From NCBI RefSeq assembly GCF_017302985.1, contig NZ_JAFIMU010000013.1:1-64000 (forward strand): 64,000 nucleotides of DNA, written 5' to 3'. The position numbers and the translations under genes are program-made. Positions 8,990-26,258 of the stretch are shown here, in pieces. The first letter of the stretch is position 1, and each line of letters starts with the position of its first letter. The notes below the pieces were generated by a model. The model was not told the origin of the DNA. It was given only the letters and a program-made list of their open reading frames with translations, and did not search any database. The stretch is from Corallococcus macrosporus. Its GTDB lineage: Bacteria > Myxococcota > Myxococcia > Myxococcales > Myxococcaceae.

Positions 8990-9211
8990 GGATGTCCTCT
9001 CGCGGGTGCTGCGCGTGTGGTGCCGTCCCGCGGAGAGGGAGGCCGACGTTTCCCAATCCACCCTTCCCAGCGCCCCCCTCCACGGGACAGCCCTGAAGAG
9101 ACGTTCCGGCCCGCGCGGCTGTGAATCCGCGTGTCCCCCACCCCGGGGCATTCACACCCGCGACGCGGCCGCGTCCTTCAGGCGCAACCCCCAACCCCCG
9201 AGGGAAGAGAC

Positions 9212-9937: not shown

Positions 9938-9947
9938 GGAGCGCGCG

Positions 9948-11588: not shown

Positions 11589-11601
11589 GTCTTCAAGGTG
11601 T

Positions 11602-11628
11602 GCCCTCCACTCAGCGGGAGTGGAGGGC
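11602..11628. terminator. Bidirectional hairpin between phaC and the sigma factor
   Basis: An 11-bp inverted repeat (GCCCTCCACTC / GAGTGGAGGGC) with a 5-nt loop. It overlaps the last codons of the convergent sigma-factor gene. Confidence 0.6.
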
Positions 11629-12147
11629 CTGGGGCACGGTCGTGCGGAGGATGCCGTACGCAAGTTGGATGCGTTTGCGCACGTTGCAGTGAGTCAATCG
11701 CAACTGCGCGGCGATGTCGGCATAGGACATATCCTGAAGGTAGCGCATCACCAGGGGACCCTTCAGATTGGGTGGCAGTTCCTGGATGCACTTGCGGATC
11801 GCCTCGGCGTCCTCGCGCTGGAGCAACCCCGCGTCGGGCAGCGCGTCCTGCGACTCCGGATCCACGGGCTCCAGGTCCTCCATCCGCCCCTCGGCTTCAC
11901 CCCGGCGTTGCCGCTCGCGATGAATGTCCATGCAGATGTTGTGGAGGATGCGGCTCAGCCACGCGCGCTCGTTGAGAATCTTTCCCGGCGACGCGTACTT
12001 CTGGAGCGCACGGAGCATCGCGGTGTCTACCGCATCCTCAGCATCCGAGACGTTCCCTCCCATCAGTCGAAGCGCCTGCTGGAACAGATGTTCCTTGTGC
12101 TGCTGCCAGACCCGCCAGAAGGGAGAGGGAGTCGATGTTGTTCTCAC
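11611..12147 (-). CDS. Sigma-70 family RNA polymerase sigma factor (ECF-like)
   Basis: This 178-residue protein has region 2 (HLFQQALRLMGGNVSDAEDAVDTAMLRALQ...AWLSRILHNICMD) and region 4 (IQELPPNLKGPLVMRYLQDMSYADIAAQL..THCNVRKRIQLAY). There is no region 1 or 3, as in ECF factors. It reads from a GTG at 12147 with only weak Shine-Dalgarno. No anti-sigma gene flanks it. The SET-domain gene is divergent, with 150 bp between starts, so the shared intergenic segment could hold an autoregulated promoter. Region 4 carries an odd THCNVRKRIQ where TxxxVRxRL is usual, which is still compatible with function. Confidence 0.88.
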   Translation of the reverse strand: MRTTSTPSPFWRVWQQHKEHLFQQALRLMGGNVSDAEDAVDTAMLRALQKYASPGKILNERAWLSRILHNICMDIHRERQRRGEAEGRMEDLEPVDPESQDALPDAGLLQREDAEAIRKCIQELPPNLKGPLVMRYLQDMSYADIAAQLRLTHCNVRKRIQLAYGILRTTVPQALHSR

Positions 12148-12297
12148 AGTATCCAGTGCCCAAAAAAGTGCCCCTGGAAACGGTGCAGCGCGGTCTTTGT
12201 GAAAAACCTCTTACCCGCTCAATAACTGCCGACACGGAAATCGAGGCGAATCACAACGCGCGCGGTCGGACGTCTTCATGGAGACCACTCCCAATGC

Positions 12298-13578
12298 ATG
12301 GCGGAGCCCATGAGCGCGCACGACGAAGAGCCGGACACCCTCGAGGAGGAACACCCGCTGAAGGAGCACCTCGCGCTCATCTGGAGCAGGCAGGCGGGCG
12401 CGAGCTTCCCGAAGCTGTGGGTGGGCCATCTGGAGGGAGATGAGCGCGGCGTCTTCGCGAACGCAGACATCGCGCCCGGAGAGGTGGTGCTCCAGGTGCC
12501 GCGAGCGTGTCTGGTGACGCTCGACGTGGCCCTCGCCTCCGACGTGGGGCGCCTCATCGAAGCCCACGCGCCCGACACGAGCGAGGAGTCCTATCTCGCG
12601 GCTTTCCTCCTCCAGGAACGCGAGCGCGAGGACTCCATCTGGAAGCCTTATCTCGACGTGCTGCCGCGCGCCTTCCCGCACCTGCCGCTGTTCTTCGACG
12701 CGCGCGAACTGTCGCTGCTGAAGGGCTCGTCCACGCTGCGCGAGGTGGCCCGGTGGAAGGAGCTGATGCTGACCCGGTACGCGGAGCTGGCCGCGAGCGT
12801 GCCAGGCTTCACGCGCTTCACGCCCGACGCGTTCCTGTGGGCGCAGCACGTGTTGATCAGCCGCACCTTCGGCCTGACGGTGGAGGGCCGCCTCATCCGG
12901 TGCTTCGTCCCGGTGGCGGACATGCTCAACCACCGCGCTTCGCCGCAGGTCGTGTGGGGGAACACGGAGGACGGGTCCTTCGTGCTGAGGGCGCGGGAGC
13001 CCGTCTCCGCGGGTGAGGAGCTGCACATCAGCTATGGCATCAAGCCCGGCTACCGCTTCCTGCTGAGCTACGGCTTCGTGCCCGAGGACAACCCGGACGA
13101 CACGCTGGTGCTCTACCTGGGCGTCCCCGAGGACGCGCACCACGCGGCGCGGAAGCGCGAGCTGCTCTCGCTCCCAACCCCGGCGTCACGCCGCCGCTTC
13201 GAGGTGCCGCTGCACTACGGCCACTCGTCGACGGTGGCGATGTTCTCCTTCCTGCGCGTGGCGTTCGCGAACACGGAGGAGCTGGCCCGCCTCACGGCCG
13301 AGGCCCGTGAGGAGCAGGGCCTGGGCCCGGTGTCCCCGCTGAGCGCACGCACGGAGGCGCGGGTGCTCCAGCACCTGGGCGACCTGTGCGAGGCGCGGCT
13401 CGCGGGCTTCGACACGACGCTGGAGGAGGACGAGCGGCTGCTGCGCGAAGCGGACCTGTCGCGCAACGAGCGCAACTGCGTGCTGTTGCGGCGCGGGGAG
13501 AAGCGGCTGCTCCACGCATACGCGGGCCTCGCGCGCACCATCCAGGCCACCGGCGGCGCCCGGGACGAGAGGACATGA
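12298..13578 (+). CDS. SET-domain protein methyltransferase (RuBisCO LSMT/SETD-like)
   Basis: The 426-residue product has a split SET domain like plant RuBisCO large-subunit methyltransferase and animal SETD3/SETD6. The N-terminal piece is ERGVFANADIAPGEVVLQVPRACLVT (49-75), then an iSET insertion, then the pseudo-knot residues DMLNHR (about 211) and EELHISYGIKPGYRFLLSYGF (about 240). The C-terminal helical part (from about 290) matches the Rubis-substrate-binding fold. Such enzymes methylate Lys or His using S-adenosylmethionine. SETs of this class are unusual in bacteria. The start could instead be ATG 12310, which has GGAG close upstream. The stop overlaps the next start by 4 bp (ATGA), so the pair is translationally coupled. 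Confidence 0.85.
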   Translation: MAEPMSAHDEEPDTLEEEHPLKEHLALIWSRQAGASFPKLWVGHLEGDERGVFANADIAPGEVVLQVPRACLVTLDVALASDVGRLIEAHAPDTSEESYLAAFLLQEREREDSIWKPYLDVLPRAFPHLPLFFDARELSLLKGSSTLREVARWKELMLTRYAELAASVPGFTRFTPDAFLWAQHVLISRTFGLTVEGRLIRCFVPVADMLNHRASPQVVWGNTEDGSFVLRAREPVSAGEELHISYGIKPGYRFLLSYGFVPEDNPDDTLVLYLGVPEDAHHAARKRELLSLPTPASRRRFEVPLHYGHSSTVAMFSFLRVAFANTEELARLTAEAREEQGLGPVSPLSARTEARVLQHLGDLCEARLAGFDTTLEEDERLLREADLSRNERNCVLLRRGEKRLLHAYAGLARTIQATGGARDERT

Positions 13579-14531
13579 CCATGAGCAAGAAGATCATCGC
13601 GGTGGTGGGAGCAACGGGAGAGGAAGGCGGCGCGCTCGCGCGGGCCCTGCTCGCGGACCCGAAGGGTGGGTTCGCGGTGCGCGCGCTCACGCGCAAGCCG
13701 GGCTCGGAGCTGGCGCGCAAGCTGGCGAAGCTGGGCGCGGAGGTCGTCGCGGCGGACGTGAACGACGCCAGGAGCCTGCGCGCCGCCTTCACGGGAGCGC
13801 ATGGCGCCTTCTGTGTCACGAGCGCCTGGGAGCACACCGCGCCGGAGCGGGAGCTCACGCAGGCGCGCGCGATGGCGCACGCCACGAAGGAAGCGGGCGT
13901 GGCGCACGTCATCTGGTCCACCCAGGAGGACACCCGGCGCTTCATGCCGCCCGGGGACGCGCGCATGCCCACGCTCAAGGGGAAGTACAAGGTCCCGCAG
14001 TTCGACGTGAAGGGAGAGAGCGACGCCGCCTTCACCGACGCGGGCGTGCCGGTGACGTTCGTGCGCGCATCCCTGCCCTGGGAGACGTTGTTGATGTTCG
14101 GCATGGGGGCGAAGCGCAACGCGGACGGCACGCTCGACTTCGTGTTGCCCACGGAGGACCAGAAGCTGCCGGGGCTGGCCACGGAGGACCTGGGCGGCTG
14201 CCTCCACGGCATCTTCCAGCGCGGGCCGGAAGGCGTGGGCAGGACGGTGGGCCTGGCCAGCGAGCACCTGACGGGCGCGGAGATCGCGCGCACGCTGAAG
14301 CAGGTGCTGGGGCAGGAGGTCGTCTACCACTCGATGTCGCCGGAGGTGTACCGGACGTTCAACTTCCCCGGCGCCGCGGAGCTGGCGAACATGTTCCACT
14401 TCATGCGGGACTTCGCCACGGAGTACTGCGCCGCCAGGGATCCGCGGCTCACGCGGGAGCTGAACCCCCGGGCGCAGTCGCTGGCCCAGTGGCTGGAGCG
14501 CAACAAGGCCCGCTTCCTCCGGGCCGCGTGA
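13575..14531 (+). CDS. NmrA-like NAD(P)-binding atypical SDR
   Basis: The 318-residue protein opens with a Rossmann dinucleotide motif VVGATGEEGGALARAL at about 10, then VRALTRKPGSE, as in NmrA/HSCARG redox sensors and quinone reductases. It lacks the canonical Tyr-x3-Lys at the usual position; STQEDTRRFMP replaces it, as in NmrA relatives that bind but may not reduce. The start at 13575 overlaps the SET gene stop (ATGA) and has GAGAGG in front. The coupling suggests a common function, but none can be named. It could act as an NADP(H) sensor or an oxidoreductase on small ketones or quinones. Confidence 0.85.
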   Translation: MTMSKKIIAVVGATGEEGGALARALLADPKGGFAVRALTRKPGSELARKLAKLGAEVVAADVNDARSLRAAFTGAHGAFCVTSAWEHTAPERELTQARAMAHATKEAGVAHVIWSTQEDTRRFMPPGDARMPTLKGKYKVPQFDVKGESDAAFTDAGVPVTFVRASLPWETLLMFGMGAKRNADGTLDFVLPTEDQKLPGLATEDLGGCLHGIFQRGPEGVGRTVGLASEHLTGAEIARTLKQVLGQEVVYHSMSPEVYRTFNFPGAAELANMFHFMRDFATEYCAARDPRLTRELNPRAQSLAQWLERNKARFLRAA

Positions 14532-14546
14532 GCGGCCAGGAGCCGG

Positions 14547-16316
14547 CTAGAACGCGCTGGCGCTGCCCACGGCCTTGTCGAGCGCCAATTCCAGCTCGCG
14601 CCGGTGCTCGGTGTAGAGCGCCTTCCAGCGGAAGCCGTCAGGCACCTCTCCCCCATGGCCGACGAAGAGATACACGAACAGGTCCAGCAGGAGTCGCTGG
14701 GCTGGCGCGGCGCAGTACCTGTGCAGCGGGTGGTGCGTCAGGCCATCCGCCGCCAACATCTCCCCAGCCACGCGGCTGAGCTCCTCCGCCGTGCGACGGA
14801 CCGCGGAGGGAGCCGCGAGCTTGGGTCTGTCGACGATCTCGGCAGCCATGGAATCAGGCAGCACCCTGCGGGCCGCTGCGCGCAGGAGCGCCTTGTAGGT
14901 ACGTCCCCGGATGCGCTGCTCCCATGGCAGCGAGAGCGCCAGGTCGCGGATCCCCCTGTCCAGGTAGGGCACCCGGACCTCCAGGCCACTCGCCATGGAG
15001 CCGAGATCCCACACGCGCAGGTGCCCATCCGTGAGCTGCCCTTCCAGGAAGAAGCGGTGGAAGGCCTCGCGCGCGGCGTCGGACTGGGGCGTGACCAGCT
15101 TCCGCAGCGTCGCCTTGGTGGAGGCACACTCGTCCGAGGGCACGTCACCCGCTCGGATCATCCGGTTGTAGTTCTCCGCGCAGGCCTTCACCCAGGGGCC
15201 CGGCGTGGCGTGGGTCATGTAGCCCGCGAAGAGCTCATCGGCCCCATCGCCACACAGCACCGCCTTGACGTGGTGACGGATGCGCGGTGCGGCGGACTCG
15301 ACGATGGTGGGCTCGGCCGGCCCCTCCAGCGCGCAGACAGCGCGAGGCAAGGTCTCGAGCAACTCGGCCGCGCTGAAGACATACTCATGATGCTGGGTGC
15401 CCAGGCGCTCCGCGAGCCTTCGGCTCACGTCGAGGTCCAGGTGCTCGGCATCATCCGCCAGGCTGAAGGTGTGCAGGTGTTGAACACCCGCTCGCGCCAG
15501 CAGCGCGGACAGCAGGGAGCTGTCCACTCCACCGGAGAGGAAGAGGCCCACCGGGTGATCCGCCACATGCTGCTGCCGCACCGAGCCCGCGAGCCGCTCG
15601 ATCAACAGCGCCACCCGCTCCTCTTCGCTCGCGGGCAGCGTGAGCGGACGCGGAACACTGTGCTGTCCAGGGCGCAGCTCGAGCGTGCCATCCGGCCGGA
15701 GTGAGACCTCGAGCGTGCCTCCGGGCGGGACCTGCCTCACGCTCTTGAAGAGGGTGCGCTCGCCGAGGAGGAAGCGGAAGGTGGCCCACTCGAAGAGCGC
15801 GGCACGGTCCAGCTCCCGCGGCAGCGCCGGGTCCACCAGCAGGGCCTTGAGCTCCGAGGCGAACAGCAGCCGGCGGCCCCCGTCCACGAGCGCGTAATAC
15901 AGCGGCTTGATGCCAAAGGCGTCACGCGCGAGGGTGAGTCGCTCGCCGTCCGACACCGCGAAGGCATACATGCCCTCGAGGTCCTCCAGGCAGGCCAGCC
16001 CCCGCCGCTCCAGGGCGCGGAGCAGCACCTCGGTGTCGCCGCGTGTCCGGAACGGCTGTCCCTCGCGCTCGAGGCCTCGGCGCACCTCCTCGTGATTGTA
16101 GAGCTCGCCGTTGAAGACGAGCGTCAGCCCGCCCTCGCCGGACATGGGCTGCGCGCCACCCGCGAAGTCGAGCAGGCTCAGCCGCGTGCTGCCCAGGCCC
16201 GCGTGCCCGACCAGGCAGGTGCCCTGCCCGTCCGGACCCCGGTGCTTGATCCGCGAGGTCATGCGCTCGAGCAGCGCACGCTCCGGCCTACCGAAGATGC
16301 CAGCAATCCCACACAC
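14547..16316 (-). CDS. asnB: Asparagine synthase (glutamine-hydrolysing), last gene of the RiPP-like cluster
   Basis: The start is GTG 16316 with GAGGAG 6 nt upstream; 589 residues. The Ntn glutaminase domain is complete: Cys2 of MCGIAGIF, STRLSLLD, FNGELYNHEE and RGDTEVLL. The synthetase domain has the PP-loop SGGVDSSLLSALL near 255 and CGDGADELFAGY near 350. This full architecture is that of AsnB and differs from lasso-peptide cyclases, which lack a working glutaminase. It lies 13 bp behind the GT4-PqqD gene on the same strand, which makes it part of the peptide cluster. It might supply Asn, or amidate a carboxylate of the product; the latter is speculation. Confidence 0.88.
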   Translation of the reverse strand: MCGIAGIFGRPERALLERMTSRIKHRGPDGQGTCLVGHAGLGSTRLSLLDFAGGAQPMSGEGGLTLVFNGELYNHEEVRRGLEREGQPFRTRGDTEVLLRALERRGLACLEDLEGMYAFAVSDGERLTLARDAFGIKPLYYALVDGGRRLLFASELKALLVDPALPRELDRAALFEWATFRFLLGERTLFKSVRQVPPGGTLEVSLRPDGTLELRPGQHSVPRPLTLPASEEERVALLIERLAGSVRQQHVADHPVGLFLSGGVDSSLLSALLARAGVQHLHTFSLADDAEHLDLDVSRRLAERLGTQHHEYVFSAAELLETLPRAVCALEGPAEPTIVESAAPRIRHHVKAVLCGDGADELFAGYMTHATPGPWVKACAENYNRMIRAGDVPSDECASTKATLRKLVTPQSDAAREAFHRFFLEGQLTDGHLRVWDLGSMASGLEVRVPYLDRGIRDLALSLPWEQRIRGRTYKALLRAAARRVLPDSMAAEIVDRPKLAAPSAVRRTAEELSRVAGEMLAADGLTHHPLHRYCAAPAQRLLLDLFVYLFVGHGGEVPDGFRWKALYTEHRRELELALDKAVGSASAF

Positions 16317-16329
16317 AGGAGGCTCCTCT

Positions 16330-18285
16330 TCACGCCTCCACGGGCGCGGCCGGTCTCTTCTCGGTGAAGATCACCAGGCCCTCGCGGTGGAACCGTTCGA
16401 GTGCCTCCAGCACGGCGCGCTCCACCTGATCCGCGGAGCGCTCGTGCCGGCGCCGATAGCCTTCGACCAGCTCCCCCACCGTGCGCGCACCGTCGCACTG
16501 CGAGACCAGCTCCGCGGTGAAGGGGTTGACCCGGAAGTGGTGCCCGTAGAGGTTGGGCCGCTTGTGGAAGAGCACGGTCGCCTCTCCTCCTGAACCCTGC
16601 CCGCCGCCGAGCACCCCGGGCGGCAGGGCGCTGAAGCGCTCCATCCGCACCCACCTGCTGCGCAGCGGAACCAGGGCTCGCAGCCGCTCGGCGGGGACCT
16701 CTCCCTTCATCGACTCCCAGAGGTCCGGGAAGTCGAATGGCGGCTGTCCCCCGTCCTCGGCGCTGAAGTGGCCCATCCACGCGATAAGCCCCGCCCAGCG
16801 GGCAGCCTCCGCCAGGGACGGCTCCGCCGAGCCGACCCACCGGCAGAACGCGACCGCGTCGACGAAGGGGTTGGCGTGCGCCTCCGGGTGGGCGTCCAGG
16901 AAGGCCTGGACCCTCGCGTCGGCCCGCTCCCCCAGGGCCTCGAGCAGCACGGGAACGGTGCGTCGCAGCGCCTCGGTGCGGTCCGCGGGCACGCCGCGAT
17001 CGGCCGCGGTCATGGTCCGGGGCTGGCCCCGGTGCCGGGCGAGGACGTCCTCGAAGAGGCGCGTGTACTCGGCGGCGAGGTCCCGCTGGGGCAGTCCGTC
17101 CAGCAGCTCCATGCCGCGCAGGCCGATGGCTCGCGCACCGGCCGGATCCTCGATGGCCCGGCGCAGCGCCGCCGCCAGCTCGCCGTGCACCTTCGGGTCG
17201 GGCACCAGGAGCACGTTCTGGCCGGAGACCAGGCGCTCGCGGAACGGCTGCTTGGCGGCGACCTCCCCGGAGAGCACGAGGCAGGTGCCACAGGCGAGCA
17301 CCTCCTTGGGCACCGTGGGCGCATGGAAGGTGATGGGAAAATCGCGCTCCAGGAAGCACACCGCGCGGCAGGCGCGGATGAAGCGCGCCACCTTCCAGTG
17401 CGCGACGAAGGGCAACACCCAGGACTGCTCCGACAGGCCCTGCTCCTCGATGGCCTTGAGCAGGGGCAACATCCTGCGGCCGCGAGTGAGGACCACCAGG
17501 TTGAAGCGCAACCCCTCCTTGCGAAGCAGGCCGAGCGCGCTCAGCAGATCATACGTCCCCTTGACGACGCCCACCTTGCCGTAGATGCCAATCACTGGCA
17601 GCGACGGGTCGATCGGGCGCGGGTTGTTCACCAGGTGCGGATGATCGCGGAGCAGCTCGCTGAGGTAGCCATTGAGGTCCAGCGGCTCCACGTCGGGGCT
17701 GAAGCACTTGCGGATGAGATCCGGGGGCACGCCACGGTAGATGTTGTCGGGGTGCACTCCCATGCCCATGAACATCAAGGGATTGCCGACACAGACGCCC
17801 TGCGCGTGCTTCAGGACCTCATGGTACGTGGTGCCAAGGCCCGGCCGGTTCATCAGCCGGCCCAGGTCGCTGCCGGCGTTGCGCACCAGGTACGGCACGC
17901 CCGTCCAGGCCGAGGCCAGGTGCGCCGCGACGCCATAGGGCTCCAGGTAGTAGCTGAAGATGACCTCGCAGCCGTGCCGGCGGATGACCTCCGTGGCCAG
18001 CCCGGCGAGCTTGCCGAGAAACGGATTACTCTGCGGCACGTGCAGGAAGGCCGGAGAGTGGGCCTCGGTCCGGTGGACGCGCACCCGTCCCTGGCCGAAG
18101 GTCGGCTCCAACCAGGAGCGATCGTCGGCCGTGAGCATGAGCCGGTAGTCGTCCTCGACTTCGTCCGCGTTGGTCACCACATGGACTTCGTGGCCTGCCT
18201 CGGCCAGCGCGCGGCACATCCAGTACGACTGGGCGCTCACACCCCCTTGGATGGGGGGATACTTCACGATGGCACAGATGCGCAC
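16330..18285 (-). CDS. GT4-type glycosyltransferase fused to a PqqD-like C-terminal domain
   Basis: The start is set at GTG 18285 (VRICAIVKYPP), with GGAG 6 nt upstream; the longer frame from 18348 would overlap the previous gene. The product is 651 residues. Residues 1-420 are a GT-B fold glycosyltransferase: N-terminal KYPPIQGGVSAQSYWMCRALAEAGHEV, and a donor-site region PTVPKEVLACGTCLVLSGE. Residues 425-651 form an extra region ending in a PqqD-like domain (HFRVNPFTAELVSQCDGARTVGEL...EALERFHREGLVIF). PqqD-type domains bind RiPP leader peptides. A very similar end is found on the MNIO protein encoded directly upstream. The inferred role is glycosylation of the modified peptide. Confidence 0.82.
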   Translation of the reverse strand: MRICAIVKYPPIQGGVSAQSYWMCRALAEAGHEVHVVTNADEVEDDYRLMLTADDRSWLEPTFGQGRVRVHRTEAHSPAFLHVPQSNPFLGKLAGLATEVIRRHGCEVIFSYYLEPYGVAAHLASAWTGVPYLVRNAGSDLGRLMNRPGLGTTYHEVLKHAQGVCVGNPLMFMGMGVHPDNIYRGVPPDLIRKCFSPDVEPLDLNGYLSELLRDHPHLVNNPRPIDPSLPVIGIYGKVGVVKGTYDLLSALGLLRKEGLRFNLVVLTRGRRMLPLLKAIEEQGLSEQSWVLPFVAHWKVARFIRACRAVCFLERDFPITFHAPTVPKEVLACGTCLVLSGEVAAKQPFRERLVSGQNVLLVPDPKVHGELAAALRRAIEDPAGARAIGLRGMELLDGLPQRDLAAEYTRLFEDVLARHRGQPRTMTAADRGVPADRTEALRRTVPVLLEALGERADARVQAFLDAHPEAHANPFVDAVAFCRWVGSAEPSLAEAARWAGLIAWMGHFSAEDGGQPPFDFPDLWESMKGEVPAERLRALVPLRSRWVRMERFSALPPGVLGGGQGSGGEATVLFHKRPNLYGHHFRVNPFTAELVSQCDGARTVGELVEGYRRRHERSADQVERAVLEALERFHREGLVIFTEKRPAAPVEA

Positions 18286-18316
18286 GACGCTCTCCAGGTG
18301 ACTCGGCGGAAGCGGA

Positions 18317-20065
18317 TCAGCTCGCCGCCGCGGCGAAGGTGAGGGCATTCAGCTCGTAGAGGCGGCGGAGGGCCTCGACGAAGGGCAGCATCCCCGTGGC
18401 GGGCGACAGCAGCGCGGCGAGCTCCGCCGTGGTGCGCGTCCCGTCGCACAGCTCGATCAGGCGCTGTGTCCGCTCGTTGATGGCCAGATGGCGCACGTTG
18501 CGGAAGCCCGGCGCCTTGGTGAAGAGCACCACCGTGGGCTTGCCCGGGGACTCGTCTCCCACGTTCCTGCCCTCGTTGATGCGTCGCACGAGCTGCGTGA
18601 CGTCACACCCGAAGCGCTCCACCCGGATGTGGGGCCCGGTGACAGGCCGCGCGGCCAGCATCTCCTCGAGGCCCGGAGCGGGACGGCTCTCGTAGGCCCG
18701 ACGGAAGTCCCGCGCGCTCTGGACGGGGACGGCCACCGATGACAGCTCGAGCTGGACGCGCTCGAAGCGAGCGATGTCAGCCAGGGGTGCTCGCAGCTCG
18801 GGACGCTGCTCCACCACCCGCTCGAGGAGCTGGAGGAACCAGAAGGCATCGCGCACCGTGCGGTTCACGAACTCCGGCGTGTGGCGCGGGGTGTACTCGT
18901 CCACGAACCGGTGCGAGAGCTCATGCCAGAGCTTCCTGTCCTGCAGCCACCGGCAGCTCGCTGGCGCCATCTTGCTCACGAGCATGAGCCGCTTGCTCGC
19001 CAGGTCATGGGCGAACGTGGTGAGCGCCTCCGCCCCCACCGCGACGAGCGCCTCCGTCTGCTCCGGCTGGAGGCCCAGCTCCTCGCCCACGGCCTGGGGG
19101 TTCTTCGCCAAACGCCGCCCGAGCCCCGCCTCCACCAGCACCCGGGCCAGCGCGGACTGGAACTCCGGCGCGTCCACGGGCAAGTCCTCCGTGGGGCGCT
19201 CGGGCCATGCCGGGGCCGCGGTCATCGCCGGTCTCCGGACGGGAGCACGGTGGGCGCGGTGGAGGATCTCCTGGGCCCGCTGGATGTCCTGGAGCATCTC
19301 CTGGAACTCTTCGGGGAAGTTCTGATCCCGCTCGATGAGGATGGCCCGCACCTGCGTGCGTTGCACCAGGTACTCCAGCAGGCTCCAGACCTCGGGATGC
19401 GCGTCCACCCGCTGGCTATGGCTGTCGATCCACTGTCCGGCACGCCGCTCGCCACCCGCCAGATGCACCTGGATGACGCGCTCGAGCGGCAGCGCATCCA
19501 GGAAGGCATAGGGGTCGTAGCGGTGGTTCTGGGAGTTGATGAACAGGTTGGCCAGATCCAGCAGCAGCCCGCAGTCGGCGTCCGTCACCACCCGGGTGAT
19601 GAACTCCGCCTCTCCCATGGGGCTCCGGAAGGCGAACGGATAGGTGATGTTCTCCAGCAGGAACGGGAGGCCGATGATCTCCTGCACCTGCCGCGTCTTG
19701 GCGGCACACCGCCGGACACCGGCTTCGGTGAAAGGCAGCGGCGTCAGCTGCCCCAGCTCCATGCCCCCCGCCTGCGTCAGGCACAGGTGATCACTGGTGA
19801 AGGGCGCACGGACCAGCCGGGTGAGCTCGCCCACCTCCTCGCAGTACCCGACGTCCAACGGCCCCGCTGTGCCAATGGACATCTCCAGCGCATGCGGCAC
19901 CAGCGGATGGGTGTCCAGCATCGGCAACGCGCGCTCGAAGCTCTCGGGCACGGAGCGCACGTACCGGTCGGCGATCAGCTCGAACCAATCGATGCGATCC
20001 ATGAACTGCAACTGCTGATCACGCAGCTCGGGGCGGTAGCCAATCCCCACCCCGAGCACGGGCAC
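18317..20065 (-). CDS. MNIO (DUF692) peptide-modifying enzyme with fused BufC/PqqD-like region
   Basis: Residues 1-280 are a DUF692 TIM barrel, the multinuclear non-haem iron oxidative family (MbnB, TglH, BufB). The start motif LGVGIGYRPELRD is followed by candidate metal ligands in HALEMSIG, SDHLCLTQAGG, LLENITYPF, DLANLFINSQNH, VIQVHLAGG and IERDQNFPE. Residues 281-582 add a helical part resembling BufC (LWHELSHRFVDEYTPRHTPEF, PLADIARFERVQLEL) and a PqqD-like end (HLAINERTQRLIELCDGTRTTAELAALL). The start is uncertain: GTG 20065 is used, TTG 20083 is possible, and neither has a strong Shine-Dalgarno. An internal ATG at 19224 with GGAG 7 nt before it could yield the C-terminal half alone. The precursor gene ends about 30 bp upstream. 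Confidence 0.88.
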   Translation of the reverse strand: MPVLGVGIGYRPELRDQQLQFMDRIDWFELIADRYVRSVPESFERALPMLDTHPLVPHALEMSIGTAGPLDVGYCEEVGELTRLVRAPFTSDHLCLTQAGGMELGQLTPLPFTEAGVRRCAAKTRQVQEIIGLPFLLENITYPFAFRSPMGEAEFITRVVTDADCGLLLDLANLFINSQNHRYDPYAFLDALPLERVIQVHLAGGERRAGQWIDSHSQRVDAHPEVWSLLEYLVQRTQVRAILIERDQNFPEEFQEMLQDIQRAQEILHRAHRAPVRRPAMTAAPAWPERPTEDLPVDAPEFQSALARVLVEAGLGRRLAKNPQAVGEELGLQPEQTEALVAVGAEALTTFAHDLASKRLMLVSKMAPASCRWLQDRKLWHELSHRFVDEYTPRHTPEFVNRTVRDAFWFLQLLERVVEQRPELRAPLADIARFERVQLELSSVAVPVQSARDFRRAYESRPAPGLEEMLAARPVTGPHIRVERFGCDVTQLVRRINEGRNVGDESPGKPTVVLFTKAPGFRNVRHLAINERTQRLIELCDGTRTTAELAALLSPATGMLPFVEALRRLYELNALTFAAAAS

Positions 20066-20094
20066 GTCATCCAGCCTGGACAAGGACTGTCGAC

Positions 20095-20268
20095 TCAGGC
20101 GTTGGACGGGGTGCCGCACAGGCAGGAGCCACACACGCAGCTGAAGCACACGCTGCCGGTGTCCTGGAAGGCATAGGCGGGGCCACAGTCGAGCATCTCC
20201 AGCTTGAACTCCTCGGTCTCGACCTGGACCTGCGTCTGCGTGTCCTGCAAGAGGGCGGTGTTTTCCAT
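20095..20268 (-). CDS. Cys-rich RiPP precursor peptide, probable MNIO substrate
   Basis: ATG 20268 is chosen because GGAG lies 6 nt upstream; this gives 57 residues. The first 27 form an acidic, Gln/Thr/Glu-rich leader (ALLQDTQTQVQVETEEFKLE). The rest is LDCGPAYAFQDTGS followed by VCFSCVCGSCLCGTPSNA. Cys falls at 28, 41, 44, 46, 49 and 51, so the core reads C-x2-C-x-C-x2-C-x-C. It is encoded directly ahead of the MNIO gene, as MNIO precursors usually are, and Cys is the common MNIO target. A candidate promoter precedes it at 20307-20334. Which residues are modified and where the leader is cut are unknown. A metal-binding peptide is the alternative reading. Confidence 0.8.
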   Translation of the reverse strand: MENTALLQDTQTQVQVETEEFKLEMLDCGPAYAFQDTGSVCFSCVCGSCLCGTPSNA

Positions 20269-20306
20269 GGAGTTCTCCAATGAGCCAGATTTTGTAGGGT
20301 ACTCAC

Positions 20307-20334
20307 GGTATCCAGGCTTCACTCAGGGTGTCAA
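20307..20334 (-). promoter_or_regulatory. Candidate sigma-70 promoter for the precursor gene
   Basis: On the minus strand a perfect -35 TTGACA (20329-20334) is followed after 16 nt by GATACC (20307-20312), a weak -10. It lies within the 68-bp gap between the GT1 gene stop and the precursor start, which would let the peptide be expressed above the rest of the operon. Confidence 0.4.
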
Positions 20335-20336
20335 CC

Positions 20337-21497
20337 TCAACGCACTCCTGTCGTGAGGGAGGCCACGGCGGTGTCCACGCCCCTGCGGGAGTTCAGGGTG
20401 GCCGCGAGTCCCCGGGCCTGCTCGCGCAGCCGGTCATCGGTGAGCGCCTGTTTCACCGCGGAGGCCAGTTGGTGCGCGGTCACACCGCGCGCGGGCACTG
20501 GCGCGGGTGCGATGCCCAACTGGTGCGCCCGCTCCGCCCAGAAGGGCTGATCAAACGCATGAGGGACCAACACCTGGGGAACTCCGGCGCGCGCGGCGGC
20601 CGCCAGGGTGCCCGCTCCACCGTGATGCACCACCGCCCTGACACGCGCGAAGAGCGGACCATGCGCGGTGTGGCCAATCGAAAGTACCCGTCCGAAAGGC
20701 TCCCGTCGCGGGGGCACGGCCTTGCCCGTGAAGAACAGGACTCGGCACCCGACGGCCGTGGCGACCTCGTGGAAGAGCCTCTCATCCAGGGCGGGCTGGC
20801 TCCCGGAGAGGCTGCCAAAGCCAACGTAGATGGGAGGCTCACCGGCCGCGAGAAACGCCTCCACCTCGGCGCTGAGCGGACGTGGGTCCTCCAGCAGCAG
20901 CGCGCCTGTCGGCGGCGTCCAGAGCTTCACCCCGTCGAGAGGCCCCACGAGCTCGGCATCGGCGGCGAGCAACACGCGCTCGGAAGCGAAGGCGTAGGCG
21001 AGCAGCTCCTCCACGGCTGGCAGTCCATGCCGGGCGTGAAACTCTCGCAGGAGCTGGAGCAGCACCTCGGGCATGGCGATGGAGCGGCGCCCTCCTGTCA
21101 GGAAGACCCCGGGTGCATAGGCGACGGCGAGATAGGGCACGCCCACGGACTCGGCCGCCGAGCGGATGGCGAAGGACATCCCCGCGCCCAGGACGAGGTC
21201 CGCTCCCCGCGCCAGCGTGGGCACACGCTCGAGGTGGGTCAGGAACTCCTGCTCGAGAAACGCCTGGAACCCGGAGGGTGAGCTGCGTCCGGGTGCTCCT
21301 GCGGGCTGGCTCCGAATGAATGCCTCGATGTCCTGGCCCAGCGGCTCGAAGGGCACGGAGAAAGCGGCGGCGTCCGGGGCGTAGAGCGGCCGCGCGGCGA
21401 GCACGGCCTCGTGCCCCGCCGCGCGCAGCCCCAGGGCCAGGGCGAGCATGGGTTGGAAGTCCCCGCGAGAGCCCGGGGCAGCGAGCAGCAAGCGCAT
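20337..21497 (-). CDS. GT1-family (UDP-glycosyltransferase/MGT-type) glycosyltransferase
   Basis: The 386-residue enzyme begins at ATG 21497, with AGGAGCGTGAG in front. It is a GT-B fold of family GT1: N-terminal LLLAAPGSRGDFQPMLALALGLRAAGHEA and the donor-binding C-terminal block IYVGFGSLSG...GHTAHGPLFARVRAVVHHGGAGTLAAAARAGVPQVLVPHAFDQPFWAERAHQLGIA. The HHGGAGT motif is the signature of antibiotic-type glycosyltransferases (GtfA/UGT80-like) that decorate secondary metabolites. Its position 16 bp after the outer-membrane barrel gene and ahead of the RiPP precursor puts it in the same minus-strand operon. It would be a second sugar transferase in the pathway; the acceptor is unknown. Confidence 0.88.
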   Translation of the reverse strand: MRLLLAAPGSRGDFQPMLALALGLRAAGHEAVLAARPLYAPDAAAFSVPFEPLGQDIEAFIRSQPAGAPGRSSPSGFQAFLEQEFLTHLERVPTLARGADLVLGAGMSFAIRSAAESVGVPYLAVAYAPGVFLTGGRRSIAMPEVLLQLLREFHARHGLPAVEELLAYAFASERVLLAADAELVGPLDGVKLWTPPTGALLLEDPRPLSAEVEAFLAAGEPPIYVGFGSLSGSQPALDERLFHEVATAVGCRVLFFTGKAVPPRREPFGRVLSIGHTAHGPLFARVRAVVHHGGAGTLAAAARAGVPQVLVPHAFDQPFWAERAHQLGIAPAPVPARGVTAHQLASAVKQALTDDRLREQARGLAATLNSRRGVDTAVASLTTGVR

Positions 21498-21513
21498 CTC
21501 ACGCTCCTGACGG

Positions 21514-22128
21514 CTAGAAGGAGAACCTCACGCCCACCCGTTCATGCAGCAGATGGACGTTCGTGCCGAGCAGCCGCACGTACGTATAGGCAGCGCCCAG
21601 GTTGAGCGCGAACCATCGGTTGGGATGCCACTCCACCCCGGCCCAGATCTCCGGGAAGACACCCAGGCGCGACTCGAAGTTGGGATCCGATTCGCCGTCG
21701 CCGTCATCGAAGTCGAGGTCGAGCGATTGCACGGTGGTGACGAGCGGGAGCCCCAGGAACTCCCTGCCCGCTCCCGCGGCGCCGAGCTTCAGCCCGCCAC
21801 CGAGGTACGGCACCCATCGCTGGCCTGCATCGCTGCGCCAGCGGTAGAGCAGCCCCGGGGTGACAGCCACCTCGGAGAAGGTGGAGTCCCCAGAGCCGCC
21901 GGTCCCCACCTCCAGCGGCACGCGGAGCGCCCACCGGGAACCCAGGTCCACCTGGAGCGCGGCCTGGAGGGTGACGCCGACCGCCACCCGGCCGCCCGAG
22001 AACGCCTGCATGGGCCCCAGCGCGAGGGGCTCCAGGTTGATACCCGCACCGAAATAACCCGAGCGCGGCACGTCACCCGCGTTTGCTGTGGATGCGAGGA
22101 CGGCGACGAGAAGCGGGACGAACGTCAT
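21514..22128 (-). CDS. Small outer-membrane beta-barrel protein
   Basis: 204 residues from ATG 22128 with GGAG upstream. A signal peptide (MTFVPLLVAVLASTANA) is followed by alternating amphipathic strands (VAVGVTLQAALQVDLGSRWALRVPLEVG, VTPGLLYRWR, WVPYLGGGLKLG, WAGVEWHPNRWFALNLGAAYTYVRL). It ends in ERVGVRFSF, the terminal Phe expected for BAM-dependent insertion. It resembles OmpW/OmpA-like eight-strand barrels. It is the first gene of the minus-strand block that continues into GT1, precursor, MNIO, GT4 and AsnB. A role in export or surface display of the product is inferred only from position. Confidence 0.78.
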   Translation of the reverse strand: MTFVPLLVAVLASTANAGDVPRSGYFGAGINLEPLALGPMQAFSGGRVAVGVTLQAALQVDLGSRWALRVPLEVGTGGSGDSTFSEVAVTPGLLYRWRSDAGQRWVPYLGGGLKLGAAGAGREFLGLPLVTTVQSLDLDFDDGDGESDPNFESRLGVFPEIWAGVEWHPNRWFALNLGAAYTYVRLLGTNVHLLHERVGVRFSF

Positions 22129-22255
22129 TTCATCTCCAGATGTTTCGCGATGAGACCCGGGCCAGCCGAGGTCCGCGAAACCACACGCGCAGCGGCGGGC
22201 CGCGATGATGCGCTGTCCGTGGTGCCCAGGTCATCACTTGGTATGGTGCGCGCCC

Positions 22256-23953
22256 ATGAATGAGCCCACGGCCGTGACCGATCCCCGCATCGGCTCGGTG
22301 TTGCAGGAGCGCTACCGCATCCTCGAGCGGCTCGCCGCCGGTGGCATGGGCATGGTGTACCGGGGTGAGCGGCTGGAGGTGGGCAAGCCCGTCGCCATCA
22401 AGTTCCTCCACGCCTGGGCCGCCGGGGACGAGGAGTTCCGCAGGCGCTTCCAGGTGGAGGCGCGCGCCACGAGCCGCCTCACGCATCCCTGCTGCGTGTC
22501 GGTCATCGACTTCGGCGTGGACCAGGACTCGCCGTTCATGGTGATGGACTTCGTCACCGGAGAGACCCTGCGCGGCCTCTTGCGCGACGGTCCCCTGCTT
22601 CCGGCCCGGGCCCTGGGCACCGTGCGGCAGGTGCTCGCCGGCCTCGCCCATGCCCACGCGCAGGGCATCATCCACCGCGACATCAAGCCCGAGAACATCA
22701 TCGTCACCCACGCGGAGGGGCTCGGGGAGCAGGTGCGCATCCTCGACTTCGGGCTCGCCAAGCTGCGCGACGAGGTGACGGGCCTCACCTCGGGGCTGAT
22801 GCTCGGGACGCCGTCCTACATGGCCCCGGAGCAGATCCACGGCGAGCCGGTGGGTCCGCCCACGGACCTGTACGCCACCGGAGTGCTGCTCTACGAGCTC
22901 CTCACCGGCAAGAAGCCCTTCAACGCCACCAGCAACGCGGAGCTGCTGCGCATGCAGCGCGAGGTGACACCTCCCCGGCTGCGCGACGCCGCCCCTGACG
23001 CGGGCTTCTCCGCGGAGCTCGAGGCGACGCTGGCGAAGGCGATGGAGAAGGCCCCGGGGGATCGCTTCCAGTCCGCCACGGAGTTCCTGGCCGCGCTCGA
23101 AGGGGCCGGGGCGGGCCCGGCGGCGTTGCCCGTGGCGTCCGTGGCCAGCGATGCACCCGGGGGGCCGCGCGCCTCCACCCCCACGCCGTCACGTCCCAGG
23201 GAGGACGCGCTCGCGACGCGGAACGTCCGCGCGCAGCCCCGCGCGACGCCGGTGGGCCTTCAGGCCGAAGCCCGCGCCAGGGACGACTCCGAGGCCACGA
23301 TCCGGTCCGGGCCCAGTACGCCCCTCCCCGTCCGCAACCGCTCGCGCCGCGTGGTGGCAGGCGTGGCGGTGCTCTCCCTGGCAGCGGTAGGCATTGGCGG
23401 ATGGGCGCTAGCGTCAAGATCCTCGGGCCCAGCGCCTGTGTCCTCCGCGGGCCCGTCGCCCACGACCCCGACGGGTGAAGAAGCACGGCCGGAGGCTCCG
23501 GCGCGCGCCACGGCCTGGCAACCCGTCGTGGAGCCGCTGCCGGGCATCGATGAGGTCCATCGGTTGATCAAGGCCCAACGTCGGGACGCGGCCCTGGCGG
23601 CGTTGAAGAAGCTGGCGGCGAAGTACCCGGCGAGCGCCTACGTCCGCTACCTGGAGGGGAACGTCGACTTCGACAACCTCCGCTGGGTGGATGGCGTGGC
23701 GGCCTACCGGGCGGCGCTGCGGCTTGAACCCGCGTACCGCAACGCGCCGGTTGTCATCCAGGACGCCATCCGCTGTCTCGTCAGCGACCGGTTCCACGGC
23801 ACCTGCGAGGACTTCCTCCGCAAGGACCTGGGTGAGGCCGCGGTGCCCTCGCTGGAGGAGGCCGCCCGCGAGCACCCCATGGCCAGCGTCCGGACCCGGG
23901 CCGCGGCGCTGCTCCGCCAGCGAGACCGCGAGCCCACGGAACGCTCACGCTGA
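22256..23953 (+). CDS. Membrane Ser/Thr protein kinase with C-terminal TPR-like region
   Basis: 565 residues from ATG 22256. A complete PknB-type kinase domain spans about 16-285: glycine loop LAAGGMGMVYRGE, VAIKFLH, catalytic HRDIKPENI near 140, LDFGLAK near 162 and GTPSYMAPEQ. A Pro/Arg-rich linker leads to one transmembrane helix (VVAGVAVLSLAAVGIGGWAL, about 363-382). Then comes a periplasmic region with helical repeats (RRDAALAALKKLAAKYPASAYVRYLEGNVDF). All catalytic residues are present, so it should be active. It is divergent from the RiPP-like operon (127 bp between starts) and could, speculatively, regulate it. Confidence 0.93.
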   Translation: MNEPTAVTDPRIGSVLQERYRILERLAAGGMGMVYRGERLEVGKPVAIKFLHAWAAGDEEFRRRFQVEARATSRLTHPCCVSVIDFGVDQDSPFMVMDFVTGETLRGLLRDGPLLPARALGTVRQVLAGLAHAHAQGIIHRDIKPENIIVTHAEGLGEQVRILDFGLAKLRDEVTGLTSGLMLGTPSYMAPEQIHGEPVGPPTDLYATGVLLYELLTGKKPFNATSNAELLRMQREVTPPRLRDAAPDAGFSAELEATLAKAMEKAPGDRFQSATEFLAALEGAGAGPAALPVASVASDAPGGPRASTPTPSRPREDALATRNVRAQPRATPVGLQAEARARDDSEATIRSGPSTPLPVRNRSRRVVAGVAVLSLAAVGIGGWALASRSSGPAPVSSAGPSPTTPTGEEARPEAPARATAWQPVVEPLPGIDEVHRLIKAQRRDAALAALKKLAAKYPASAYVRYLEGNVDFDNLRWVDGVAAYRAALRLEPAYRNAPVVIQDAIRCLVSDRFHGTCEDFLRKDLGEAAVPSLEEAAREHPMASVRTRAAALLRQRDREPTERSR

Positions 23954-24057
23954 GCCCTTCGGGCGGATGGCCGTTCCGAAAACCACCGCGACCCGCGGTG
24001 ACGCGCACTCAGCGTAAAGTCGTGGCTTCCACTGGAACCTGAGCTGGGAGCCACACC

Positions 24058-24876
24058 ATGAAGCTGATGTCGAACAGTGCCATCGTGACGGGAGCAGGAC
24101 AGGGCATCGGTCTGGGAATCGCCGCGCGCCTCATGCGGGACGGCGCCAACGTCCTGCTGTTCGGGCGGACACCGGAGAAGTTGGAGGCGGCCGCCGCGGA
24201 GCTCAACCGGACGGCGGAGGGGCGCACCCGGGCAGTGCCCTTCGCGGGAGACGTGGTTCGCGCGGAGGACGTGGCGCGAGCGCTCGAAGTCGCCACGCGT
24301 GAGTTCGGCCTCCCGGGCATCCTGGTGAACAACGCCGGAACGGCCACCCTTCGAATGGTGCTCGAACTACCCGAGGCGGAGTTCGACCAGGTCCTGGCCA
24401 TCAACCTCAAGGGGCCTTTCCTGTTCACCCAGGCGCTCGCGAAGGCGCTCATCGCCGCGAAGCAGCCGGGCTCCATCGTCAACATCTCCTCACTGAACCA
24501 GACGGCGGTGACGGACGGGCTTGCCCACTACTGCGCCTCCAAAGCGGGGCTCGCGAACTTCTCGAAGGCCGCGGCTTCGGAGCTGGGGCGTTACGGCATC
24601 CGGGTGAATGTCGTGGCCCCGGGCGCCATCCGCACCCCTCTGGCGGAGATGGCCGGCCTGGGGAGTGGCGCCATGGCGCAGGGATTCCTCGCCCACACGC
24701 CGCTCGGGAAGGCGTGGGGCGAGCCGGATGACGTGGCGAAAGTGGTGTCGTTCCTCTGCAGCGACCTCGCGTCCTGGATGACCGGAGACACCCTCGCCGT
24801 GGACGGAGGCAATCACATCCGCGGGCTGCACAGCTACGCGGACGCGCTGGGCCTCACCCGGCCCGTCGAAGGCTGA
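24058..24876 (+). CDS. SDR-family oxidoreductase
   Basis: The 272-residue classical short-chain dehydrogenase starts at ATG 24058 with GGGAG 8 nt ahead. Motifs: TGAGQGIGLGIA cofactor loop at about 10, NNAG near 93, Ser in NISSLNQTAV, YCASKAG catalytic Tyr/Lys near 160, and PGAIRTPLAEM. The FGRTPEK following beta-2 suggests NADP(H). It stands alone between a kinase and an ExbB-like gene, so its substrate cannot be deduced. It resembles 3-oxoacyl-ACP reductase and glucose-1-dehydrogenase type enzymes equally. Confidence 0.9.
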   Translation: MKLMSNSAIVTGAGQGIGLGIAARLMRDGANVLLFGRTPEKLEAAAAELNRTAEGRTRAVPFAGDVVRAEDVARALEVATREFGLPGILVNNAGTATLRMVLELPEAEFDQVLAINLKGPFLFTQALAKALIAAKQPGSIVNISSLNQTAVTDGLAHYCASKAGLANFSKAAASELGRYGIRVNVVAPGAIRTPLAEMAGLGSGAMAQGFLAHTPLGKAWGEPDDVAKVVSFLCSDLASWMTGDTLAVDGGNHIRGLHSYADALGLTRPVEG

Positions 24877-25025
24877 GGCAATGACAGAACGATGACCAAC
24901 GCATGGACGCGGGCCCACCCTCGCGTCCATGCGCTTGCGTACCTTGGACACCGTTCCCGTCACCGCCGTTCCCTCATGGGGCCACACCGTGGCCCACGCG
25001 CACGGAGGCGCGTCTCGTTCCCGCC

Positions 25026-25712
25026 ATGAACTTCACACTCGCGGGTCTGTGGACCCACATGGGTCCGGTCGCACAGCTCATCGTCATCGCCATGGGCGTG
25101 ATGTCGATGGTGTCCCTCCTCATCCTCGCCGAGCGCGCGTTCGTCTTCCGCGCGGCCCGCCGCCAATCGCGCAGGTACGCCGCGCAGCTGGACGCCCTGC
25201 TCGCCAATGGCGACTTCGACGCCGCCGCCGAGGTGAAGACGGACAAGGACGTGGGCTACCTGGGAAGGACCATCCGCGCGGGGCTGACGGCCTACCGCGT
25301 CTCCGCCACCGACAGCCGTGAGGAGGTCATGGAGACCGTGGCGCGCGGCCTGGAGCGGCAGGCGCAGCGCGAGGTCCAGAGCCTCAAGCGCGGCCTGGGC
25401 CACCTCGCCACCGTGGGCTCCACCGCCCCCTTCGTGGGATTGCTCGGCACCACCATCGGCATCGTCACCGCGTTCCAGGAGATGGGCGCCGCGAACTCGG
25501 GCGGCATCGGGACCATCTCGACGGGCATCTCCGAGGCGCTCGTCACCACGGCCTTCGGCCTGCTCGTCGCCATCCCCGCGGTCATGGGCTACAACTCCTT
25601 GCAGGGCTGGGTGGACGCCCGCGCGGTGGACCTCTCCGAGGCAAGCAACGAGTTCCTCGACGCCGCCTCCCGCGCCCTCAAGCGCACGCGCGCCATGAGC
25701 CCAAGGAGCTGA
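25026..25712 (+). CDS. MotA/TolQ/ExbB-family proton channel protein
   Basis: 228 residues from ATG 25026. The ExbB topology is clear: a first helix (PVAQLIVIAMGVMSMVSLLILAERAFVF), a cytoplasmic loop, then two helices (LGHLATVGSTAPFVGLLGTTIGIVTAFQEM and ISEALVTTAFGLLVAIPAVMGYNSL) with the conserved GLLGTT and pore Thr residues. Such proteins form pentameric channels that energise TonB or Tol with ExbD/TolR. Here no ExbD, TolR or TonB gene follows; the next gene is on the other strand. It must pair with a partner encoded elsewhere or be a paralogue with another job. Confidence 0.9.
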   Translation: MNFTLAGLWTHMGPVAQLIVIAMGVMSMVSLLILAERAFVFRAARRQSRRYAAQLDALLANGDFDAAAEVKTDKDVGYLGRTIRAGLTAYRVSATDSREEVMETVARGLERQAQREVQSLKRGLGHLATVGSTAPFVGLLGTTIGIVTAFQEMGAANSGGIGTISTGISEALVTTAFGLLVAIPAVMGYNSLQGWVDARAVDLSEASNEFLDAASRALKRTRAMSPRS

Positions 25713-25780
25713 CGCGGGACGCGGTGCTGAAGCGGGCGAGGTCCGGACATGGTGCCGGCCCCGCCCGGACTTCCGGAGGC

Positions 25781-26095
25781 TCAGCCCTCGCGGGTCGAGT
25801 TCAGCGAACCGGCGGGCTGCGCGTCCTGACAGACCAGCGCATCGGAGTCGGACTGGAGCGACCCGGCCTCCATCACGGAGGCCATGGGCTCAGCCGGCGC
25901 GGGAGCGGGCTGGATGCAGTAACCGGACTCACCACACGTGGTGTAGTAGGTGGCCCCGAGGAAACAGACGGTCTCGCAAGGGGCGCCGGGGTAATAGCAG
26001 ACCTCGTCACACTGCGGCGGATAGGCGAAGGCCGCGGCGGGGAGCACGGCAAGGGCAGCGGTGACAGCCTGAAGGAACTTCCTCGGCATGTGCAT
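25781..26095 (-). CDS. Small secreted Cys-rich protein
   Basis: The ATG at 26095 has AGGAG 5 nt upstream; the product is 104 residues. A signal peptide (MPRKFLQAVTAALAVLPAAAFA) is followed by YPPQCDEVCYYPGAPCETVC, then LGATYYTTCGESGYC, with eight Cys in the mature part including one near the C-terminus. No lipobox Cys is present, so it should be free in the periplasm or exported. Small Cys-rich secreted proteins of this kind are common in myxobacteria but have no known role. It is divergent from the large repeat lipoprotein at 26259. Confidence 0.7.
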   Translation of the reverse strand: MHMPRKFLQAVTAALAVLPAAAFAYPPQCDEVCYYPGAPCETVCFLGATYYTTCGESGYCIQPAPAPAEPMASVMEAGSLQSDSDALVCQDAQPAGSLNSTREG

Positions 26096-26258
26096 CGGGT
26101 CTCCTACGGGGATGGAGGTTGCACCCCAATCCTGGGGCAACTGGAACCCTAACACCATCCGCGGCGGCACTCCTCCGCGAAGCAATGACTTGCACCAGAT
26201 GCCAGTGAATGAAAGACTCCTCCCGCCTTCGTTACACAGGCACATTGGGGGGTGTGGA

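Follow-up and report, generated by a model that had tools for sequence, protein, structure and literature searches.

The window considered here is a stretch of 64,000 nucleotides from Corallococcus macrosporus (contig NZ_JAFIMU010000013.1, positions 1 to 64,000 of the forward strand), within which a run of minus-strand genes brings together a Cys-rich peptide, an enzyme of the MNIO family, glycosyltransferases of the GT4 and GT1 types and an AsnB-type amidotransferase (Table 1). A sequence-only reading had described six minus-strand open reading frames (ORFs) at 14547-22128 as a cluster for a ribosomally synthesised and post-translationally modified peptide (RiPP). All six are present where it placed them, and profile searches agree with its family calls for the MNIO (PF05114, 253 bits, E 3.5e-75), the GT4 with a PqqD match, AsnB and the GT1-type enzyme. 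Its call of an outer-membrane barrel stands in so far as there is such a match, albeit weak and below cut-off, but the gene is not a member of the cluster (see below). The true start of the GT4 is probably the GTG at 18285, and that of the MNIO probably lies downstream of 20149, nearer 20083. A GGAG can be read in the sequence upstream of the precursor ATG. Between 14400 and 22300 a promoter scan gave no sites and terminator-like sites number four against 2.2 expected, an Rfam scan of 10000-28000 gave no matches, and GC content does not differ inside the segment (0.696) from that outside it (0.701 and 0.693).

Table 1. Features at the locus; positions refer to the window unless a locus handle precedes them
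Feature	Position	Strand	Basis
AsnB-type glutamine-dependent amidotransferase	14547-16316	minus	translation, Pfam/NCBIfam profiles, alignment
GT4-family glycosyltransferase with C-terminal PqqD/RiPP recognition element (RRE) tail	16330-18348	minus	profiles, fold match, tail homology
MNIO (DUF692/PF05114) fused to MNIO-partner module	18317-20149	minus	profiles, fold match
MNIO catalytic part	19262-20053	minus	
MNIO-partner module (helical part and RRE-like end)	18320-19213	minus	
Precursor peptide, 57 residues, 6 Cys	20095-20268	minus	translation and orthologues
Precursor leader motif VETEEFKLEMLDCGP	residues 16-30, about 20179-20223	minus	
Precursor Cys-rich core VCFSCVCGSCLCG	residues 40-52	minus	
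GT1-type glycosyltransferase, EryCIII-like C-terminal domain, accessory	20337-21497	minus	profiles; three of four clusters
Outer-membrane barrel gene, outside the cluster	21514-22128	minus	profile weak, below cut-off; congener comparison
Strain-specific segment with five genes	14541-21508		DNA comparison with congeners
FELRAMKP/C-x-x-C precursors of wider loci	L052:3041-3274, L056:3128-3379, L057:9519-9770, L058:8991-9203, L059:9562-9813, L071:12041-12256		

Comparison between genomes indicates that five of these genes (AsnB, GT4, MNIO, precursor and GT1; 14547-21497) hold as one unit. When 195 Myxococcota genomes were searched with the 610-residue MNIO protein, six candidates being scored in most of them, a full-length MNIO in one frame was found in four, namely the window's own genome and G094, G096 and G117 (G and L numbers are our handles for genomes and loci), the remaining matches covering mainly the MNIO domain. 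The order precursor-MNIO-GT4-AsnB is identical in all three of the others, where identity to the window proteins is 70, 70 and 56% for the MNIO, 74, 72 and 57% for the GT4, 75, 74 and 59% for AsnB and 65, 65 and 56% for the precursor. At E 1e-60 the GT4 family is present in at least four of 193 Myxococcota genomes, the query genome included, and none of 15 congeners has a match to its profile. In G094 and G096 a GT1 gene comes before the precursor, and the 16 kb extracted from G117 contains no match to it; since it thus occurs in three of four clusters and, like the barrel, went unmatched by tblastn at E 1e-4 across the 36 wider loci described below, GT1 is taken as optional. Gene set, order and conservation are in this way observed directly. 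The sequence-only reading had named the neighbourhoods of other myxobacteria as its test, and there the genes lie together, with the peptide beside the MNIO, in all three other genomes; the cluster as first drawn is therefore well supported by co-conservation as regards the MNIO, tailed GT4 and AsnB, with GT1 optional and the barrel outside.

The limits of the unit, and its behaviour as a block, are seen in the congeners. Their DNA gives long matches to one or both flanks, while among the matches listed there is no long one to 14541-21508, those inside being short and to other MNIO and AsnB genes. In G076 the left-flank similarity stops at window position 14540 and alignment picks up again at 22236, the two points being separated by 72 bases. 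A single match in G075 spans 21509-23957, that is, the barrel and a kinase; barrel and Ser/Thr kinase also adjoin in G086 (in two matches) and in G088, with the pairing not fixed, as some 28 kb separate the two in G076 and some 11 kb in G077. Because flank similarity breaks at these points and the barrel is also found where the cluster is not, we place the strain-specific segment at about 14541-21508, with five genes. The barrel had been counted as a cluster gene; that assignment must be dropped, as at least seven of the 15 congeners, all cluster-free, carry DNA matches to it and the three orthologous loci give no tblastn match. Its candidacy as exporter or receptor of the product is ruled out by its presence in cluster-free congeners. 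In the window, too, the barrel and Ser/Thr kinase genes adjoin (21514-23953), as in cluster-free G075, G086 and G088. Both ends of the segment carry a 9-base direct repeat, CGGCTAGAA (14544-14552 and 21511-21519), possibly an insertion footprint, or possibly chance since both copies are gene ends.

Within the MNIO, residues H86, H121, E166, N167, D198, N201, H229, D242, H244 and E273, which we take to be metal ligands, are near-invariant (alignment A6) and align to TglH and MbnB; the closest solved folds to the catalytic part are TglH, the DUF692 structure 3bww and MbnB. NCBIfam names no equivalog for the protein, which scores 199.8 bits against a cut-off of 310 for BufB, 197.1 against 360 for HvfB, 99.5 against 400 for ApyH and 38.8 against 325 for MbnB. 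Its C-terminal module matches ApyI (5e-7), HvfC (3e-6) and Os17 (1e-4), each below the curated cut-off, and across 12 partner members these models match at E <=0.05 in 10 (HvfC), eight (Os17) and eight (ApyI); against solved chains the partner-tail profile gives weak PqqD matches only (best E 0.14). The fusion of MNIO and partner seen in the window is resolved into separate genes in Plesiocystis (L043), where the order is precursor, MNIO, separate partner, GT4, AsnB. In L061, L062 and L063 the MNIO frames are of 533-571 residues, which suggests further MNIO-partner fusions in Actinomycetota. The window's own genome holds three further MNIO genes, of which that at G000:C10:114791-115525 is divergent, with a 551-residue open frame.

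The claim that the tails of MNIO and GT4 are similar is borne out by profile comparison, in which the GT4 tail (n=13 sequences) and the MNIO partner (n=12) are related over 219 columns (hhalign probability 99.6, E 6.9e-24). PqqD matches at E <=0.01 in 12 of 24 GT4 members, and against solved chains the GT4-tail profile finds a PqqC/D chain (2.4e-4). The Plesiocystis GT4 also matches NGO1945_C (E 3e-5, slightly below cut-off), the C-terminal domain of a protein termed a typical MNIO partner (PMC12452194; this and the other papers are cited for the part of their text available). In other words, the GT4 seems to carry an RRE together with most of an MNIO partner. Since its tail shares ancestry with the MNIO partner, the GT4 and the MNIO probably recognise one and the same leader, and this homology, itself a direct observation, is the strongest argument for predicting that the GT4 acts on the same precursor.

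As for the glycosyltransferase domain, the GT4 model (mean predicted local distance difference test score 90.9) best matches BshA (Z 34.1, root-mean-square deviation 3.5, 360 residues) and MshA (Z 31.4), in VIA-align rows that span model residues 1-419 only and hence barely cover the tail. BshA and MshA use UDP-GlcNAc; likeness of a modelled fold does not, however, fix the sugar donor. Residues G138, S139, D140, G236, K237, K242, G243, E313, H321 and E328 are invariant in all 24 GT4 members (alignment A5, numbered from 18285) and lie outside the pattern used for scanning, the stretch YPPIQGGV being conserved by construction.

The leader motif VETEEFKLEMLDCGP is invariant in all four precursors (window, G094, G096 and G117), and of the 57 codon columns free of gaps 17 show synonymous changes only and in 27 the residue differs. 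Orthologues occur in L040, L041 and L042 and a relative in L043; a small conserved precursor thus adjoins the MNIO in four of four genomes, plus L043. Among the four precursors Ser43 and Ser48 never vary, no Asp or Glu is conserved within the Cys-rich core, and the C-termini are Asn-Ala, Ser-Ala, Thr-Ala and Asn-Ala, none being Asp-Asn; that of the window peptide reads Ser-Asn-Ala. The N-terminus, MENTALLQDTQTQVQVETEEF, is hydrophilic as judged by eye.

In AsnB the family motifs are likewise intact, with Cys2, the SGGxDS loop and GDGADELFAGY kept in four of four genomes. Its nearest solved chain by sequence is the hydroxyamidotransferase 7ylz. A Glu-Tyr pair five residues apart is important in peptide-amidating relatives (PMC13060819), and E361 and Y366 of the window enzyme, at the same five-residue spacing, would correspond to it. 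A lasso-type macrolactam made by AsnB is disfavoured, as the lasso cyclase model reaches only 145.3 of 525 bits and the core has no conserved acidic residue. At L076:5605-7795 and L077:2743-5525 AsnB adjoins a tail-less GT4 relative on contigs with no MNIO match, possibly an ancestral, non-RiPP neighbourhood.

Beyond the window, a contig scan with the GT4 alignment returned relatives at 36 loci, a first contig scan with the MNIO alone having returned none. At 24 of the 36, tblastn located an MNIO gene, and the presence of this gene follows the length of the GT4: an MNIO lies nearby in 23 of 24 loci with a GT4 of at least 560 residues and in one of 12 with a shorter one (Fisher p 2.3e-7). The sole long-GT4 locus without an MNIO, L049, has just 412 upstream bases, and in the sole short-GT4 locus with one, L058, the tail is in another frame. 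By record titles and tree labels the 24 span Myxococcota, Chloroflexota, Acidobacteriota, Actinomycetota, Bacillota and Pseudomonadota. Each of 13 genomes searched whole has one GT4 copy. The GT4 is rare in samples of single phyla, families or orders: at E 1e-80 it occurs in two of 396 genomes in the phylum and two of 251 in the family of G198, and in one of 96 in the order of G196, counts that include the query genome and, with 3-12 candidates scored per genome, are lower bounds. Outside the pattern scan, G647 (L090) has an MNIO, a full-length GT4 and a Cys-rich peptide, and G507 has a short GT4 (match to position 427, in a 450-residue frame) on a 3.9-kb contig with no MNIO match. The neighbours of the relatives vary, and include an ABC transporter (L046), a MacB-type permease (L054) and a lantibiotic dehydratase (L050). 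The last of these, in Asanoa (L050:11984-15109), is a full-length LanB directly after the partner-tailed GT4. In Bryobacterales (L054:3959-14920) the genes that come after MNIO, partner and AsnB encode the MacB-type permease, the tailed GT4, a protein whose M50 peptidase match is weak and under the cut-off, and another GT4-type enzyme. We read the window as belonging to a wider group, the marks of which are precursor, MNIO, partner and GT4-partner fusion.

Candidate precursors recur across this group. Small ORFs with at least four Cys in their last 40 residues lie upstream of the MNIO or GT4 in 20 of the 24 loci; among 105 other genes from these loci, which served as controls, 13 have one (p 2.6e-11). 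Two 700-base upstream windows were allowed for the cases and one for the controls. L044, L047 and L055 fall below four Cys, and L045 fails the automatic test because its precursor array lies outside the 700-base windows. Examples are CLSCYCGSGCLCG from Plesiocystis (L043), LPCCSCGGCCMCYA from Nocardia (L048) and SCIVCFVCFVCIVCLV from Acetobacteraceae (L057); a first leader-like regular expression for small ORFs in the wider loci gave nothing useful. The last example typifies a precursor family of very hydrophobic C-x-x-C repeats after a FELRAMKP motif, found in Chloroflexota, Acidobacteriota, Acetobacteraceae and Streptomycetaceae. L045, from Thermoanaerobaculia (5855-13664), has one MNIO and an array of twelve small ORFs, of which seven follow the first partner-tailed GT4 gene and five the second; their leaders are of the GG type, their ends are rich in Cys, and CTGCEGCDRCNGCDG occurs in some. 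A small GCELCxxC protein lies between the partner and MNIO genes in L044 (5015-5206) and L045 (8695-8934); the L045 copy has no Pfam match.

Taken together, it is probable that the segment is a compact RiPP cluster which combines MNIO oxidation, leader-guided glycosylation and AsnB amidation. From sequence we infer each chemical step and the order of steps, as well as which sugar donor is used, which residue takes the sugar, how the leader is bound and removed, and the export and activity of the product. The precursor would be cytosolic, and its leader (around EEFKLEMLD) would be gripped by two modules that share an ancestor, namely the partner carried by the MNIO and its counterpart on the GT4. 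One or more core cysteines would be oxidised by the MNIO, and the GT4 would move a sugar from a nucleotide-sugar, perhaps UDP-GlcNAc, to the core, on Cys or a nearby Ser. The AsnB-type enzyme would amidate a carboxylate, most likely the precursor C-terminus, given that no acidic residue is conserved in the Cys-rich core, and GT1 may add a second sugar. More tentatively, with the balance leaning slightly against it, we suggest a separate RiPP class, sparsely represented in six or more phyla, whose GT4 would have gained a duplicate of the MNIO partner by fusion, such that one leader recruits both oxidase and glycosyltransferase; the sugar would sit on or next to an MNIO-modified cysteine, with an amidated C-terminus where the cluster includes an AsnB.

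Several points weigh against this interpretation. For the window and Plesiocystis proteins, matches to the partner and NGO1945_C models fall short of the curated cut-offs, and the AlphaFold model is poor at the MNIO partner tail. The usual GT4 catalytic spacing is E-x7-E, and because it is not kept, the invariant residues being E313, H321 and E328, catalysis by the GT4 is not certain. No protease or exporter gene lies within the segment. The contig scan, built on the GT4 alignment and two 8-residue patterns, is a biased sample; its loci are not independent, since L057/L059 and L054/L060 are near copies, and several contigs are short, with L078, among the 12 short cases, a 52-residue fragment. 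The script's picks of Cys-rich ORFs in L061 and L065 are doubtful, and without them the count is 18 of 24. In the tree the MNIOs linked to a GT4 do not form one clade (two label changes); such a clade was thus not recovered, although one origin remains compatible. Lastly, AsnB occurs in seven of the 24 MNIO-bearing loci (L043, L046, L054, L060, L061, L062 and L063) and also in three of the 12 without MNIO (L070, L076 and L077). There is therefore no support for treating AsnB as a marker of the wider group in its entirety; it belongs to the Myxococcaceae form and some others.

Of the other explanations, the one with most to commend it, possible though clearly less probable than glycosylation as an integral step, is a metallophore of the bufferin or methanobactin type, binding copper or another metal, in which the glycosyltransferases only tune solubility or export. 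The MNIO catalytic part is closest to the BufB and HvfB models, the core is Cys-rich, and bufferins bind copper (PMC12452194). Against this, both of those scores are below cut-off, the precursor N-terminus appears hydrophilic, unlike the Sec-exported bufferins, and there are no metal-resistance or TonB genes among the segment's proteins. It is unlikely, in our view, that the product is an antibiotic-like or signalling RiPP which GT1 glycosylates inside the cell for self-protection; the accessory-like distribution of GT1, not found in the fourth cluster, and its match to the rifamycin-inactivating glycosyltransferase model (E 2e-45) would fit, yet that match is at superfamily level only (155.6 bits of a cut-off of 800) and the segment has no exporter. 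Less probable again is that the GT4 no longer transfers sugar and acts instead as a scaffold delivering the precursor, or that it is a small-molecule enzyme with a peptide carrier. The non-canonical catalytic-loop spacing and the small acceptors of BshA and MshA, its closest folds, speak for this; the ten residues invariant in 24 of 24 members, and a confidently modelled fold that resembles nucleotide-sugar enzymes, speak against it. That ordinary polysaccharide or amidotransferase genes adjoin the MNIO by chance is very improbable, for although GT4, GT1 and AsnB are common in surface-polysaccharide loci and AsnB adjoins a tail-less GT4 in L076 and L077, where no MNIO turned up, co-conservation (the same order in four genomes, an invariant leader, one block and the cross-phylum association of tail and MNIO) largely contradicts it.

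On the preferred reading, of a cluster in which oxidation and glycosylation share a leader, a long-tailed GT4 beside an MNIO becomes a sequence handle for finding further clusters and precursors, and leader-guided peptide glycosylation becomes directly testable; if true, it would provide a new glycosylation tool for peptides.

How the cluster stands to known systems can be judged from the enzymes that it shares with them. Glycocins are made by SunS-type S-glycosyltransferases of the GT2 type, to which PF00535 also belongs; here too one would expect a Cys-containing RiPP to carry a sugar, but the window enzyme is a GT-B GT4 with an RRE-type tail rather than a GT2, and an MNIO is present. With methanobactins (MbnABC) the window shares the MNIO fold, and the core segment CGSC resembles one methanobactin core, whereas the MbnB score is far from its cut-off and the segment has no MbnC or TonB match. 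Bufferins and HvfB-HvfC systems share the order precursor-MNIO-partner and a partner with an RRE, and supply the closest MNIO models, though their equivalog scores are not reached and bufferin precursors carry Sec signals (PMC12452194). The main text of that survey of the MNIO landscape, as distinct from the Pfam names in its Fig. 5b, among which there may be a glycosyltransferase, lacks 'glycosyl', 'asparagine', 'PqqD' and 'Myxo' in its available part. Aminopyruvatides (ApyH/ApyI; PMC11002830) are approached through the ApyI match of the partner module, below cut-off; the ApyH score is low, no P450 or B12-radical SAM enzyme is among the segment's proteins, and the precursor has no C-terminal Asp. 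DUF692 clusters with no leader found have been reported from acidophilic Acetobacteraceae (PMC8776678), possibly an earlier sighting of the L057 kind.

Fusions of an RRE to a glycosyltransferase, which like the window GT4 join such an enzyme to a RiPP recognition element, were noted as unassigned in 2020 (RRE-Finder, PMC7470986, the available text of which lacks 'DUF692' and 'methanobactin'), and RRE fusions to PF00535 are mentioned in PMC12710340, whose neighbourhood markers include MNIO and whose data may hold clusters of the MNIO/RRE-glycosyltransferase kind. The sequence-only reading knew of no characterised MNIO pathway that adds two glycosyltransferases and AsnB, and as regards AsnB it is contradicted by the nitrilobacillin (pes) cluster, in which an MNIO and partner occur with an asparagine-synthetase-like enzyme, by which the C-terminus of the peptide is first amidated and next converted to a nitrile (PMC13060819). 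The likeness to the window lies in the presence of such an enzyme in an MNIO cluster. The nitrilobacillin MNIO, however, hydroxylates the Asp beside a C-terminal Asn, in a pathway with an HExxH enzyme and M16 peptidases (PMC13060819, the available text of which lacks 'glycosyl'), and the substrate ends in Asp-Asn, whereas the window precursor is Cys-rich and ends in Ser-Asn-Ala. In the texts available, figures and supplements apart, we found no published description of an MNIO together with a partner-fused glycosyltransferase. Set beside these systems, the window cluster is read as belonging to an undescribed RiPP group, the novelty of which lies in a GT4 that carries an MNIO-partner-like module and in the wide recurrence of that arrangement.

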